Assembly (NCBI RefSeq): GCF_029626155.1
Contig: NZ_JARUBL010000001.1
Location: 2,356,001 to 2,420,000, forward strand
Length of the DNA stretch: 64,000 nt
Direction: 5' to 3'
Source: Solwaraspora sp. WMMD1047
GTDB taxonomy: Bacteria; Actinomycetota; Actinomycetes; Mycobacteriales; Micromonosporaceae
Each line of letters begins with the position of its first letter. Position 1 is the stretch's first letter. Under the pieces are notes generated by a model. The model ran no database searches. It saw nothing but the letters and a program-made list of their open reading frames with translations, and had not been told where the DNA came from. Positions 4,365 through 10,421 of this stretch are shown here, in pieces. The position numbers and the translations under genes are program-made.

Positions 4365-5522
4365 TCAGCCCGTGGCGCAGGGCTTGTCGTTGAGGGTGAA
4401 GCCGGCCGGTGGCGCGTTGCCGCCCCTCCAGGTGCCGAGAATGCCGAACGAGACGCTGCCGCCGGCCGGGATGGTCCGGTTCCAGCGCAGGTCGCGGGCG
4501 GTGACGGTGGCGCCCGACTGGGCGTGCCGGGTGTTCCAGGCGGTCCGGACGCGCTGGCCGTCGGAGTAGGCAAAGGTCAGGGTCCAGCCGTCGACCGGCG
4601 CGGATTCGAGGTTGTGGATGGTCACCTCGGCGATGAACCCACCCCTCCACTGCGCCTGCACGGCGTAGCTGACCTGGCAGGTCGGGGGCGCCGGGGTGGG
4701 CGTGGCCGTTGCCTCGAGGGTGATGGTCGGGGTGGCGATCGAGAGGTTGCCGGCCGCGTCCACGGCCCGCACGTAGAAGATGTTTCTTCGGGACAGCACC
4801 AGGTCGACGCGGTGGCTGGTGCCGGTCACCGTGGCCAGCAGGGTCGAGGTGTACCAGCCGTCGAACCGGTACACCTGGTATCCGGTTACGCCCACGTCGT
4901 CGGTCGCCGCCGACCAGGTCAGTTCGGCGCTCGACCCGGTGACGTCGCGGGCCGCCAGGTCGGCGGGTGTCTGCGGCGGGGTGGTGTCCGGCCCGGTGTC
5001 GGTGGCGGGGGTCATGACCAGGACCGAGTTCGACGCGGACGAGGTCCGGCCGTCGACATCCCGGGCGTACACCTGGATGGTGTACTGCGAGGCCGGTCGG
5101 ATGCCGCTGGTGAAAACGACGGTGGTGACGTCGCCGACGTGGCTCAGGCTGATGACGTCGTTGAACGCCCGCCAGACGCCGACGTCGTATCCGAGGAGGG
5201 GGCAGCAGCCGGGTGTCGAGGCGGTCCAGCTCAGCGTGACCGAGTTGGATCGGACGGCGACGACGGCCAGGTTGGTAGGAGTGGTGGGCCGGTCGCTGCC
5301 CGTCGGGCTCGGCGTGGGCGTCGGCGGTGACGTCGGCGGCGGCGGGGCCGGTGGTGTCGGAGTCGGTGGCGGTGGTTTCGTGGCGGACCACGCCGTCGGT
5401 CCGGCTCCGGCACCGGGTACGGCCACCAGCACCGAGCCGAACACCGCGACCGGTAGCACGACGGCGGCCAGCAGGCCCGACAACAAACCACGACTCGCCA
5501 CTATGGAGCTGATTCCCCGCAT
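4365..5522 (-). CDS. secreted FN3-FN3-CBM2 protein, paralog 1
   Basis: A 385-residue exported protein. The N-terminus has a signal peptide (LLSGLLAAVVLPVAVFGSVLVAVPGAGAG), then a Pro/Thr-rich linker. Two fibronectin type III domains follow (about residues 85-170 and 180-270). A CBM2 cellulose/chitin-binding domain takes the last about 100 residues, from CQVSYAVQAQW to the terminal KPC, which probably form a disulfide. Surface tryptophans in QWRGGF, DGWTLTF and AWNT fit CBM2. No catalytic domain is present. The first FN3 has an adjacent cysteine pair (PGCCPLLGY). The ATG at 5522 is chosen because it follows a promoter shared with paralog 3. Likely role: binding of polysaccharide outside the cell. 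Confidence 0.85.
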   Translation of the reverse strand: MRGISSIVASRGLLSGLLAAVVLPVAVFGSVLVAVPGAGAGPTAWSATKPPPPTPTPPAPPPPTSPPTPTPSPTGSDRPTTPTNLAVVAVRSNSVTLSWTASTPGCCPLLGYDVGVWRAFNDVISLSHVGDVTTVVFTSGIRPASQYTIQVYARDVDGRTSSASNSVLVMTPATDTGPDTTPPQTPADLAARDVTGSSAELTWSAATDDVGVTGYQVYRFDGWYTSTLLATVTGTSHRVDLVLSRRNIFYVRAVDAAGNLSIATPTITLEATATPTPAPPTCQVSYAVQAQWRGGFIAEVTIHNLESAPVDGWTLTFAYSDGQRVRTAWNTRHAQSGATVTARDLRWNRTIPAGGSVSFGILGTWRGGNAPPAGFTLNDKPCATG

Positions 5523-5528
5523 CCCTCG

Positions 5529-5557
5529 ACGATCCATCGGACATCGATGACTGTCAA
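5529..5557 (-). promoter_or_regulatory. promoter of FN3-CBM2 paralog 1 (leaderless type)
   Basis: On the minus strand TTGACA (5557-5552) is followed by a 17-nt spacer, GATCGT (5534-5529), 6 nt and the ATG. The same layout with similar sequence precedes paralog 3. The short distance predicts that transcription starts at or next to the A of ATG. Confidence 0.5.
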
Positions 5558-5599
5558 GACGCCGGGGGTACGGGGATCGGGTCCGGTAGCCCGCCGACG

Positions 5600-6622
5600 A
5601 TGGCGACCCGGGAGCCCGCACCGACCCGCGACGAACCGCGATTTCCGGCCGACCGGGTGACCGGTCGCGGGCGCGGCTGGTACCGGGGCGACTGCCACGT
5701 CCACACGGTGCTCTCCACCGGCGGGGAGTTGACGGCGGACCAACTCGCGGTCGCGGCCCGCCGGGCGGGTCTGGACTTCATCGTGACCACCGAACACAAC
5801 ACGGCGGACGGCCACGCCGTCTGGGCCGAACCGGCCGGTGACGATCTGCTGGTGATCGCCGGTCAGGAGGTGGTCACCGCGACCGGCCACTGGCTGGCGC
5901 TCGGCGTGCCCCGAGGCGCCGTCGTCGACTGGCGTCACCGGGCCGGCGACGGCGGCATCGACCGGCAGCTTGACCGGGTACGCAGCTCGGGCGGCCTGTC
6001 GGTGGTGGCCCACCCGTACGCGCCCTATCCGTCCGGCCGGTTCGAATATCCGCAGCAGGGATTCGACGCGGTGGAGGTGTGGAACGGCCGGTGGGCCTCC
6101 GACCTGCCGTGGAACGCCGACAACGAGGCGGCGCTGGCGGAGTGGGCGGACGGCCTGGCGGCTGCGGTCCGGAGCGGACGGTGGCGCCCGGCGATCGGCA
6201 ACAGTGACGTGCACCTGGCGGACCAGATCGGTGAACCGCACACCGTGGTGCTCGCCGACGAGCTGAGCGCCGACGGGGTGTTGGCGGGTCTGCGCGCCGG
6301 CCGGTGCTGGGTCGCCCAGATGGCGGGCATCGAGCTGTCGGTGACGGCCGCGGCCGGCGGACGCCGGGCCGGACCGGGTGACCGGCTGACGGCCACCCGG
6401 GACGAGCCGGTCGTGTTCGCGGTGGAGGTGGCCGGCGTACCCCGTGGGGTGGTGAGCCTGCACACCGACCGGGGCGAGGCGCGCCGGGCGACCCTGCCCC
6501 GGCACGGCGCCGGCGCGCTCCGCTGGTCCACCACCGCCGGGGAGTCGCTGTTCGTCCGGGTCGAGGTACGCCACCGCAACGGCGAGATGGCGGCCCTGGC
6601 CAACCCGGTGATCCTGGGTTGA
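5600..6622 (+). CDS. PHP-domain metal-dependent phosphoesterase
   Basis: A 340-residue protein with the PHP fold. The metal-binding motif I is CHVHTVLSTGGEL. TTEHNT follows about 40 residues later (motif II). VVAHPYAPYP is motif III, and AIGNSDVHL, near residue 200, holds the final Asp and His ligands. This order matches the stand-alone PHP phosphoesterases. The last about 100 residues form a beta-rich domain. There is no signal peptide, so it is probably cytoplasmic. It is divergent from FN3-CBM2 paralog 1 and convergent with paralog 2, so it splits that gene family. The substrate is unknown. No ribosome site is visible before the ATG. Confidence 0.85.
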   Translation: MATREPAPTRDEPRFPADRVTGRGRGWYRGDCHVHTVLSTGGELTADQLAVAARRAGLDFIVTTEHNTADGHAVWAEPAGDDLLVIAGQEVVTATGHWLALGVPRGAVVDWRHRAGDGGIDRQLDRVRSSGGLSVVAHPYAPYPSGRFEYPQQGFDAVEVWNGRWASDLPWNADNEAALAEWADGLAAAVRSGRWRPAIGNSDVHLADQIGEPHTVVLADELSADGVLAGLRAGRCWVAQMAGIELSVTAAAGGRRAGPGDRLTATRDEPVVFAVEVAGVPRGVVSLHTDRGEARRATLPRHGAGALRWSTTAGESLFVRVEVRHRNGEMAALANPVILG

Positions 6623-6633
6623 TTGGTACCCGG

Positions 6634-7767
6634 TCAGCCGGTCGCGCAGGCCCCGCCGTTGAGGGTGAACCCGGTCGGCGGTGCGTTGCCGCCGGTCCAG
6701 GAGGCCATGATGCCGAACGAGACGCTGCCACCGGCCGGGATGAGCCGGTTCCAGCGCAGGTCCCGGGCCGTGACCGTGGCGCCGGACTGGGTGTACCGGG
6801 CGTTCCAGGCCGACCTGACACGCTGGCCGTCGGTGAGGTCGAAGGCGAGCGTCCAGCCGTCCACCGGCGCGGCTCCGACGTTGTGGACTGTCACCTCGGC
6901 GATGAACCCGCCGCGCCACTGCGCCGAGACGGCGTAGTCGACGTGGCAGGTCCGCTGCACCGGGGTCGTCGAGGGGGTCGGGGTCTGCGGTCCGGTGCCG
7001 GTGAAGCTGATCGTCGGAGTGGCGAGCGAGACGTTGCCGGCCGCGTCCACGGCGCGGACGTAGAACAGGTTGCGGCCCGGCGCCAGGCTGACCCGGTGGC
7101 TGGTCCCGGTCACGGTGGCCAGCAGCCTGGAGGTGTACCAGCCGTCGAACCAGTACACCTGGTAGCCGGTCACGCCCACGTCGTCGGTCGCCGCCGACCA
7201 GGTCAGCTCGGCGCCCCACCCGCTTGCGTCGCGGGCGGCCAGGTCGGTGGGCGCCTGCGGCGGGGTGGTGTCCGGGCCGGTGTCGGTGGCGGGCGTGACC
7301 ACGCGCAGCGTCGCGCCGGGGGAGTAGGTCCCCTGGGTGTCGCGTGCCGACAGCGAGATGCGGAACTCGGAGGTGGGCCAGGCCCGGAAGGTGAGGCTGG
7401 TTGCGTCGCCGCCGAGCCGGTACGGGGTGATGACGTCGCTGAAGGCCGGCAGGACGCTGAGGTGGTATTCCGCGATGGGGCAGCAGCCGGGAGTCGCGGG
7501 GGTCCAGCTGATCGTCACCGAGTCGGTCCGGACCTCGGTGGCGACCAGATTGGTCGGGGCGCCCGGCGGGTCGCCAGGCGTCGGTGTCGGCGTCGGGCTC
7601 GGCTCGGCGGTGGCCGCCGGCGGCTGTGCGGCCCACGCCGCCGGTCCGGTGCCCGCGCCGGGTACGGCCACCAGCACCGATCCGAAGACCGCGACCGGCC
7701 CGACGACCGCGGCCAGCAGCGCCGGCACCAGTCGACGACCAGCCACTGTAGAGCGGAAATCGGGCAT
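6634..7767 (-). CDS. secreted FN3-FN3-CBM2 protein, paralog 2
   Basis: A 377-residue exported protein with the same order as its neighbours: signal peptide, Pro/Thr linker, two FN3 domains and a C-terminal CBM2 (from CHVDYAVSAQW to the terminal GGAC). The ATG at 7767 is preferred because GGGGAAGG precedes it by 7 nt; an upstream TTG has no such site. The FN3 cysteine pair is kept (PGCCPIAEY). It lies 51 nt downstream of paralog 3 on the same strand, so the two are probably co-transcribed. Unlike paralogs 1 and 3 it has no copy of the conserved promoter, which fits an internal operon position. Confidence 0.85.
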   Translation of the reverse strand: MPDFRSTVAGRRLVPALLAAVVGPVAVFGSVLVAVPGAGTGPAAWAAQPPAATAEPSPTPTPTPGDPPGAPTNLVATEVRTDSVTISWTPATPGCCPIAEYHLSVLPAFSDVITPYRLGGDATSLTFRAWPTSEFRISLSARDTQGTYSPGATLRVVTPATDTGPDTTPPQAPTDLAARDASGWGAELTWSAATDDVGVTGYQVYWFDGWYTSRLLATVTGTSHRVSLAPGRNLFYVRAVDAAGNVSLATPTISFTGTGPQTPTPSTTPVQRTCHVDYAVSAQWRGGFIAEVTVHNVGAAPVDGWTLAFDLTDGQRVRSAWNARYTQSGATVTARDLRWNRLIPAGGSVSFGIMASWTGGNAPPTGFTLNGGACATG

Positions 7768-7818
7768 GACTCGACCTTCCCCGGGCAATAGATTGACGTG
7801 TAACGGCGTTGCGGTTTC

Positions 7819-8958
7819 CTATCCGGTGCACACCGAGTCGTTCACCATGAAGCCGGTGGGTGCGCGGTTGGCGCCGGTCCAGGTGCCGAGCAGGCCGAAC
7901 GAGACGCTGCCGCCCGCCGGGATGACCCCGTTCCAGCCGACGTCGCGCAGTGTCACCGCCTCGCCCGACTGGGCGTGCGTCGCGTTCCACACCGAGCTGA
8001 TCCGCTGGTCGTCGGGGTAGGCGAAGGTGAGCAGCCAGCCGCTGATGGGGGCGGTCCCGGTGTTGTGGACGGTCAGCCCGGCCACGAAGCCGCCGGCCCA
8101 CTGCGCCTGCGTGGTGTAGGTGATCCGGCAGGAGACCGGGTCCACCGCCGGAGTGGTCGGCGGCGGTGTCGGTGGGGGCTCGGTCGGACCCGAGCCCGGC
8201 AGGCGCAGCGTGTTGGTGGCGATGGAGACGTTGCCGGCCGCGTCCCGGGCCCGGACGTAGAAGTTGTTGCGGCCGTTCGTCAGGGTCACCGGGTGGCTGG
8301 TGCCGGTCACGGTGGCGAGCAGGGTGGAGACGAACACCCCGTCGAACCGGTACACCTGGTATCCGGTCACGTCCGCGACGTCGGCGGGCGGTGACCAGGT
8401 GAGCACGGTCTCGGTCGGTGTCGCGTCCGAGGCGGTCAGGTTCGTCGGCGCCGGTGGCGGGGTGGTGTCCGGGCCGGTGTCGGTAAGCGGGGTGACGACG
8501 GTGACCTCGTTCGACAGCGCCGAGCGGCGGCCCTGGAAGTCCTTGGCGACGACCGTGAACTGGTACTGGGTGGCCGGCAGGATGTCGGCGGTGATGGTGG
8601 CGGTGGTGACGTCGCCGACGCTGGCCGTCGAGCCGACGTCGTAGAAGGCCCGGAAGGAGATGATGTCGTAGCCGACGATGGTGCAGCAGCCGCGGGTCGA
8701 GGCGGTCCAGGTGAGCGTCACCGAGCGGCTGGTGACGGCCGTCGCGGTCAGGTTCGTGGGTGCGGTTGGCGGGTACGGGGTGGTGCTCGGGGTGCCCGTC
8801 ATGAGCGCCGGAGCCACGGGCAACGCGTGGGCGGCGATGGTCGCAGGTCCGGCGCCGACCCCGGTCAACAGGACGGCGAGTCCTGCCGCCGGAAGGACCG
8901 CCGCCAGCAGCACCGACATCAGTCGCCGACGTACCTGAGTGGACCTCTCGCCTGGCAT
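7819..8958 (-). CDS. secreted FN3-FN3-CBM2 protein, paralog 3
   Basis: A 379-residue exported protein. It has a signal peptide (LLAAVLPAAGLAVLLTGVGAG), two FN3 domains (the first with RGCCTIVGY) and a CBM2 from CRITYTTQAQW to the terminal VCTG. It is the first gene of a two-gene unit with paralog 2. The promoter matches that of paralog 1, with 6 nt between the -10 and the ATG, which supports the start at 8958 and a leaderless message. The three copies differ most in their linkers, pointing to an older duplication. No enzymatic domain is present. Confidence 0.85.
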   Translation of the reverse strand: MPGERSTQVRRRLMSVLLAAVLPAAGLAVLLTGVGAGPATIAAHALPVAPALMTGTPSTTPYPPTAPTNLTATAVTSRSVTLTWTASTRGCCTIVGYDIISFRAFYDVGSTASVGDVTTATITADILPATQYQFTVVAKDFQGRRSALSNEVTVVTPLTDTGPDTTPPPAPTNLTASDATPTETVLTWSPPADVADVTGYQVYRFDGVFVSTLLATVTGTSHPVTLTNGRNNFYVRARDAAGNVSIATNTLRLPGSGPTEPPPTPPPTTPAVDPVSCRITYTTQAQWAGGFVAGLTVHNTGTAPISGWLLTFAYPDDQRISSVWNATHAQSGEAVTLRDVGWNGVIPAGGSVSFGLLGTWTGANRAPTGFMVNDSVCTG

Positions 8959-8964
8959 ACCCCG

Positions 8965-8993
8965 ACGATGCGCCAGACATCGACAGTCGTCAA
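8965..8993 (-). promoter_or_regulatory. promoter of FN3-CBM2 paralog 3 (leaderless type)
   Basis: On the minus strand TTGACG (8993-8988), a 17-nt spacer, CATCGT (8970-8965) and 6 nt lead to the ATG at 8958. The spacer shares TCGATGTC with the promoter of paralog 1, so the control region was duplicated together with the gene. Confidence 0.5.
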
Positions 8994-9515: not shown

Positions 9516-10421
9516 CTAACCCGGACCGGGGCGGGACCGGCCGACGAGTTCGCGGACCGCGGGCGCCACCTCGGCCGCGAACAACTCGGTGGTGGCGGTG
9601 TCGTCGGAGGCGAGCAGGTAGGCGCTGGTGCCGTAGGTGAGGGTGACCTCGGCGAGCTGCTCCACCCACTGGCTCGGCGGACCCTGCAGGAAGCCCCGCC
9701 CGGCGGCGGTGAACTCACCGGTGATGTTGAGCAGTCGCCGTACGCTGCCGGGGTCGCGGCCGGCGGCCCGGGCGCCCTCGTCGATGTGCCGGTTCAGCTC
9801 GGCCAGGTCGGCGACGCCGCCGGGCAGGTACTGGACCGACGGCAGCCAGCCGTCGGCGGCGCGACCGGTCATCCGCAGGATCCGGGGCTTGTAGGCGCCG
9901 ACCCAGATCGCGGGCTGATGGGCGGGCGCGGGTCCGCGCTTGGCGCCCCGGACGGCGTAGTGCTCGCCCTCGACGGTGAGCCCGCCGCGCTGGTCGGCGT
10001 CCCAGATGCCCCGGATGATGGTGATCGCCTCCTCCAGGGCGGCGATCGACTCGCCGGGGGACAACCGGCGCCCGCCCATCGCCGCGATGCCGTCCCAGAA
10101 CGCCCCGGCGCCGAGCCCGAGTTCGATCCGCCCACCGGAGAGCAGGTCGAGGGTGGCGACGCTGCGGGCGAGCACCGCGGGGAGCCGCAGCGGCAGGCTC
10201 GTCACGTTGGCGGTCAGCCGGATCCGTTCGGTACGCGCGGCGGCGTACCCGATCAGGGTCCAGGTGTCGTGGAACTTCGCCACGTACGGGTGGTCCTGGA
10301 AGGTGACCAGGTCCAGCCCGGCGCGGTCGGCCACCACGGCCTGTTCGACGGCGTGGCCGACCGGCTGGTTGGTGGGCGTGACGAAGGTGCCGAACAACAG
10401 GTCGTGGCCGTAGTCGGTCAT
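9516..10421 (-). CDS. LLM class flavin/F420-dependent oxidoreductase
   Basis: A 301-residue luciferase-like monooxygenase family protein (TIM barrel). Typical segments are VTFQDHPYVAKF, TERIRLTANVTSLPLRLPAVLA, LDLLSGGRIELGLGAG and AIWVGAYKPRILRMTGRAADGW. These match actinobacterial members that mostly use F420 or FMN. GGAGG precedes the ATG by 5 nt, and the start overlaps the stop of the upstream fusion gene (ATGA), so the two are coupled. The N-terminal domain of that fusion is a related LLM domain, suggesting that both proteins act on the same substrate. The substrate is unknown. Confidence 0.85.
   Translation of the reverse strand: MTDYGHDLLFGTFVTPTNQPVGHAVEQAVVADRAGLDLVTFQDHPYVAKFHDTWTLIGYAAARTERIRLTANVTSLPLRLPAVLARSVATLDLLSGGRIELGLGAGAFWDGIAAMGGRRLSPGESIAALEEAITIIRGIWDADQRGGLTVEGEHYAVRGAKRGPAPAHQPAIWVGAYKPRILRMTGRAADGWLPSVQYLPGGVADLAELNRHIDEGARAAGRDPGSVRRLLNITGEFTAAGRGFLQGPPSQWVEQLAEVTLTYGTSAYLLASDDTATTELFAAEVAPAVRELVGRSRPGPG

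Follow-up and report, generated by a model that had tools for sequence, protein, structure and literature searches.

The window analyzed here is a stretch of 64,000 nucleotides from Solwaraspora sp. WMMD1047 (NCBI RefSeq assembly GCF_029626155.1, contig NZ_JARUBL010000001.1, forward-strand positions 2,356,001 to 2,420,000). It carries three genes, here called A, B, and C, whose secreted products consist of two fibronectin type III (FN3) domains followed by a CBM2 domain, with two adjacent cysteines in the first FN3 domain (FN3-1). A preliminary description of this DNA, made from the letters alone, had reported three such proteins lacking a catalytic domain and sharing a P/R-GCC motif in FN3-1. 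The open reading frames and Pfam matches confirmed the first statement, and the aligned sequences confirmed the second (P-GCC in A and B, R-GCC in C).

Genes and domain architecture

The genes, their CBM2 domains, and the codons of the shared motif are located as follows.

4365 to 5522, minus strand: gene A, secreted FN3-FN3-CBM2 protein of 385 amino acids (open reading frame, Pfam, start from promoter spacing)
4377 to 4679, minus strand: CBM2 of A (Pfam PF00553, residues 315-415)
5202 to 5210, minus strand: Gly-Cys-Cys codons of A, in the BC loop of FN3-1 (motif 5187-5228)
6634 to 7767, minus strand: gene B, secreted FN3-FN3-CBM2 protein of 377 amino acids (open reading frame, Pfam)
6646 to 6948, minus strand: CBM2 of B (Pfam PF00553, residues 281-381)
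7480 to 7488, minus strand: Gly-Cys-Cys codons of B (motif 7465-7506)
7819 to 8958, minus strand: gene C, secreted FN3-FN3-CBM2 protein of 379 amino acids (open reading frame, Pfam, AlphaFold2 model)
7828 to 8130, minus strand: CBM2 of C (Pfam PF00553, residues 277-377; VIA-align to 6qfs, Z 19.9)
8683 to 8691, minus strand: Gly-Cys-Cys codons of C (motif 8668-8709; loop in the model)

The open frames extend from 4365 to 5621 for A (418 amino acids), from 6634 to 7788 for B (384 amino acids), and from 7819 to 8958 for C (379 amino acids). The true start of A is likely at 5522 because of the promoter spacing described below, and that of B is likely near 7767, at an ATG behind a GGAAGG site. All three proteins begin with an N-terminal hydrophobic export segment (recognized by eye), which a Pro/Thr-rich linker joins to the two FN3 domains; a second linker leads to CBM2. 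Identity to C across the folded part is 57% for A and 53% for B. Pfam detected fn3 (PF00041) and CBM_2 (PF00553) in all three and no catalytic domain in any of them. The PF00041 matches scored 45 to 67 bits against a cut-off of 25, with a single fn3 stretch passing alone in B; the PF00553 matches scored 108 to 115 bits, covered the full length of the model (1-101 of 101), and included the terminal cysteine pair. The 8.16-Mb genome as a whole has 70 places that resemble protein C, mostly CBM2 domains.

Position of the cysteine pair

A strict DNA pattern for W-x5-GCC-x4-Y had three matches in the whole genome, exactly those in A, B, and C, and the reversed control pattern had none. The AlphaFold2 model of protein C, which drew on 22 sequences, is a string of FN3, FN3, and CBM2, with a mean predicted local distance difference test (pLDDT) score of 88.5 and a predicted TM-score of 0.61. 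VIA-align recovered two FN3 folds (for example 8os3, Z 15.4, root-mean-square deviation 1.8 over 99 residues) and a CBM2 fold (6qfs, root-mean-square deviation 0.8 over 103 residues); whole-model TM-scores from Foldseek were low, as expected with domains on flexible linkers. In the model, G39-C40-C41 lies between strands 29-34 and 43-52 and thus forms part of the BC loop, which is exposed in the FN3 topology. The two ten-residue blocks around these residues have pLDDT values of 94 and 96, so the structure prediction that the preliminary description had called for places the pair in a confidently predicted loop.

Conservation among relatives

We searched for the motif in 300 genomes of the same family, Micromonosporaceae, and found the pattern in 40 of them; 25 of the 30 loci examined encode full FN3-FN3-CBM2 proteins. 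A whole-protein profile was then used to avoid selecting on the motif, although all of its alignment rows carry the motif and it therefore leans that way. Applied to 200 family genomes, this profile returned members at E < 1e-95, with enzyme tails separated at 1e-82 and weaker; further profile searches covered 67 genomes of the genus that holds the pair-less members and 151 Micromonospora genomes. Genus labels (Dactylosporangium for g44, Paractinoplanes/Actinoplanes for g29, Micromonospora for g4), and with them the family name Micromonosporaceae, were assigned through proteins that agree in length and score between the named and the sampled genomes (L064 and L157; L066 and L201; a 1260-residue enzyme in L067 and G106).

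In total, we read 92 distinct members, some of which had first been found by the motif search. Both cysteines are present in 70 members and neither in 22, and no member has a single cysteine. The pair is therefore conserved well beyond the genome in which it was first noticed. Members with the pair occur in genus groups g1 (that of strain WMMD1047), g2, g4, g16, g21, g25, g29, g31, and g44, which puts the subfamily in no fewer than nine genus groups. All 22 members without it (including L066 and L087) belong to Paractinoplanes/Actinoplanes, where the pair is present in 5 of 27 matches. In 391 genomes outside the family, from a class sample of 394, the motif pattern gave eight matches; all eight were read and none lies in an FN3 domain. 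Likewise, none of 32 stretches in viral contigs that matched the pattern was a relative.

Within the set used for tree building, the pair is retained in 59 of 59 members of the lineage that has it, compared to only 40 of 58 and 35 of 59 for nearby loop positions. Two members have Ser or Asp in place of the GCC glycine and retain both cysteines. Downstream of FN3-1, 90 of the 92 members have two cysteines, the CBM2 pair, and two members have one; the CBM2 pair constitutes the only other conserved cysteines. Upstream, 24 of the 92 have a cysteine within 60 residues of the matched region; most of these cysteines lie inside the export segment or ahead of it. One of the two members with a single downstream cysteine (L249:4663-6507) has Arg in place of the second CBM2 cysteine and keeps the loop pair. 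In three Micromonospora members (L174:8412-10256, L257:4178-6376, and L258:3694-5469), the FN3-FN3 unit is repeated and the pair occurs in both copies.

Two sequence-adjacent cysteines, as a vicinal disulfide requires, are thus found in A, B, C, and their relatives, and a vicinal disulfide is the most likely and most economical reading of the pair. The preliminary description had raised the possibility of such a bond. The both-or-none conservation of the pair, the lack of another conserved partner cysteine, and the confidently predicted loop lend it indirect support, and the bond itself is a prediction. Pairing with distant residues, which would speak against the bond, is not indicated here, as only the CBM2 cysteines are otherwise conserved and these are also kept in proteins without GCC. 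The pair could instead link chains by disulfides, so that the proteins form covalent dimers or become attached to some other exported protein. The exposed loop and the lack of a conserved intrachain partner other than the CBM2 pair would fit such a link, but one cysteine would suffice for it, and it is disfavored because single-cysteine members are absent (0 of 92); we consider it very unlikely. We give still less credence to the pair as a redox switch or as a metal site of two thiolates. The two residues occur together, as either role needs, but no further metal-ligand residue is conserved beside them, exported proteins are normally oxidized, and we found no thiol-redox family in the sample of neighboring genes tested. 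The suggestion that the proteins are redox-sensitive accordingly gained no support.

Another explanation is that the pair does no more than stiffen the BC loop. FN3-1 would then bind no ligand itself, and the proteins would be ordinary binders of cellulose that adhere to its surface or loosen it. Cellulases often carry FN3 and CBM2 as accessory domains, and members that lack the pair are otherwise unchanged. In the tree set, however, the Trp, Tyr, Phe, and Asp residues of the fold are retained with and without the pair. Folding therefore does not depend on the pair, which is nevertheless invariant in the lineage that has it. We regard stiffening alone as a somewhat unlikely explanation, although a stronger one than the interchain or redox alternatives.

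A galactanase gene as recurrent neighbor

A first comparison of 24 loci plus the window, for which open reading frames were chosen coarsely, revealed no conserved neighbor. When we compared the immediate flanks of 80 members, one recurrent neighbor emerged: a same-strand gene directly downstream in 25 of the 80 loci, all of them in Micromonospora. Its product belongs to glycoside hydrolase family GH53 (354 bits), the endo-beta-1,4-galactanase family, and has no other domain and so no binding module of its own. By coordinates, GH53 adjoins the gene in 27 of the 40 Micromonospora genomes with the protein, lies elsewhere in 9, and is missing from 4. Taking the two Micromonospora searches as covering the same 151 genomes, GH53 is present in 36 of the 40 that have the protein and in 22 of the 111 that lack it (Fisher P 3e-15, uncorrected for kinship). 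The association persists when linked genomes are left out (9 of 13 versus 22 of 111; P 5e-4, likewise uncorrected for kinship). Such a neighbor hints that the protein does more than bind cellulose in general, which argues against a role limited to loop stiffening. Together with the domain content, the GH53 context in Micromonospora also favors non-catalytic binding of plant polymer, as the preliminary description had proposed.

Among the four genomes without GH53, one (L259) has a GH44-FN3-CBM2 gene nearby and another (L247) a GH10-CBM2 gene. These two and one glycogen-debranching-like gene were the only genes of glycoside-hydrolase type among 20 neighbors tested elsewhere. The distant member L176 comes after sugar ABC-transporter and oxidoreductase genes. 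In the window itself, a plus-strand gene for a CehA/McbA-family PHP metallohydrolase, apparently unrelated, lies between A and B (5600-6622). The other neighbors are unremarkable and encode part of an ABC-2 transporter, GNAT, glyoxalase-like, DUF1349, MarR, and PIG-L proteins, and luciferase-like oxidoreductases.

A shared promoter-like element

Genes A and C are preceded by TTGACRRYYRTCGATGTC, an element of the form TTGAC-N5-TCGATG.

5540 to 5557, minus strand: promoter-like element of A, 35 nucleotides before the ATG
8976 to 8993, minus strand: promoter-like element of C, 35 nucleotides before the ATG

Using a pattern derived from A and C, we scanned the upstream regions of 79 family members (80 members, one with too short a flank). 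At four or fewer mismatches, the element occurs upstream of 53 of the 57 members that carry the pair and of 20 of the 22 that lack it; the reversed pattern occurs in 0 of 57 and 2 of 22. The start codon follows the first T by 35 to 37 nucleotides in at least 73 of 74 aligned cases. Because of this distance, and with a -10 element about 17 nucleotides behind the -35 element, the transcripts are probably leaderless. With six mismatches, gene B lacks the element; it is probably cotranscribed behind C. The family therefore has a promoter type in common, which does not imply a common regulator.

Allowing one mismatch, we found five sites in the WMMD1047 genome: those of A and C, one upstream of a GH53 gene pair (C1:2162394, with the gene start about 150 nucleotides on), and two (C1:4495628 and C1:5925896) before genes that we named by eye, an EccD-like gene and a secreted DUF4360-like gene. 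Allowing two mismatches gave 14 sites, versus 2 for the reversed control. The element upstream of the GH53 pair therefore ties the proteins to GH53 in a genome where these genes are not neighbors. Against this tie, in Micromonospora genomes without the protein, the element was found at none of 11 GH53 genes at three or fewer mismatches.

The promoter region of the GH53 pair (about 10230-10412 of locus L281, C1:2152000-2166000) also contains, by eye, two GAGCGCTC-type inverted repeats that resemble LacI-family operators. We also considered control by CebR, whose operator is TGGGAGCGCTCCCA, a sequence that the repeats at the GH53 pair resemble by eye. It has no match at two or fewer mismatches in the window, and upstream of the family it matched 3 of 82 regions at two mismatches versus none in one shuffle, with no clear enrichment.

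Relation to known proteins and origin

The closest named family is the exoglucanase CbhB (NCBIfam NF041611), a GH48 enzyme whose family description is not known to include a GCC loop. A, B, and C match only its tail (165 to 198 bits, model positions 697-997), with the same domain order; they have no catalytic domain, fall far under the 1950-bit cut-off, and are not members of the family. GH9-CBM3-FN3-FN3-CBM2 enzymes of Micromonospora (L067 and L070) have the same tail order and score 245 to 260 bits against our family profile, but they are large enzymes with no adjacent cysteines in the matched tail. By sequence, the best bacterial FN3 domain of known structure for FN3-1 is that of chitinase A1 (1k85, E 1.9e-10), which differs in being part of a chitinase and in having no cysteine pair in the aligned loop.

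Restriction of the match to the last 300 positions of CbhB, and the resemblance to GH9 tails, could mean that A, B, and C are functionless remnants of cellulases in decay. The nine or more genus groups, however, conserve the open frames, the domains, the cysteines, and the promoter, and we consider decay extremely improbable. The simplest history would be that a cellulase tail became a gene of its own, gained the pair, and later lost it in part of one genus; the polarity of gain and loss rests on the outgroup of the tree. A literature search on vicinal disulfides in fibronectin type III domains found nothing related, and the literature searched, which did not extend to a 2017 review of vicinal disulfides, contained no earlier description of such a paired-cysteine family. 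The domains and their order are ordinary, whereas the paired-cysteine FN3 subfamily and its link to GH53 look new.

A precedent for the pair is arabinofuranosidase 1wd4, for which a vicinal disulfide that touches arabinofuranose is described (PMC12102755). Both cases involve adjacent cysteines in a protein linked to plant-wall sugar. The bond in 1wd4 is seen in a solved structure, whereas in A, B, and C the bond and any sugar contact are predictions.

Proposed function

We propose, with a probability of roughly 40%, that these are cellulose-anchored accessory binding proteins of plant-cell-wall degradation in which the sulfur-bearing loop contacts a second ligand, either a wall sugar or a partner enzyme. 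The C-terminal CBM2 would anchor the protein on cellulose, and the second FN3 domain may act as a spacer. The adjacent cysteines in the BC loop of FN3-1 would form a vicinal disulfide and thereby a rigid, exposed sulfur patch; because the pair is kept both-or-none, a rigid sulfur-sulfur knuckle that grips wall material is suggested. The patch may touch a sugar of the wall, for example pectic galactan, or else a partner enzyme, for example the GH53 galactanase whose gene is adjacent in many Micromonospora, and the protein would thereby keep an enzyme or a matrix polysaccharide at the cellulose surface. Given the GH53 context, the likeliest ligand would be a pectic side-chain sugar or GH53 itself. 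A more specific version, which we think unlikely, is that FN3-1 is a new carbohydrate-binding FN3 domain in which a pectic sugar, of galactan or arabinan, rests on the vicinal disulfide. The protein would then have two heads, one on cellulose and one on pectic galactan, and would link the two polymers, serving as an in-trans binding module for the GH53 galactanase of the same operon.

Several observations weigh against the accessory-binding proposal. The family is one lineage and its genomes are related. Few independent events underlie the both-or-none pattern, because a tree built without the loop columns needs only three changes of the pair label in the family, at least two of them forced by well-supported branches. 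Architecture and promoter are kept in the 22 of 92 members without the pair, which is therefore not needed for the whole function. GH53 adjacency was seen only in Micromonospora, and 13 of the 40 genomes there have GH53 only elsewhere (9) or not at all (4). Finally, in Micromonospora genomes with the protein, only one of nine unlinked GH53 genes has the promoter-like element (three mismatches).

To our knowledge, the role of FN3 domains in bacterial wall degradation is unsettled, and FN3-CBM proteins that lack an enzyme domain can easily be written off as debris of cellulases. The all-or-none cysteine pair, the shared promoter, and the GH53 neighbor in Micromonospora offer a directly testable function for FN3 domains in this process, and may point to a novel motif for sugar binding and to a binding module that works in trans.

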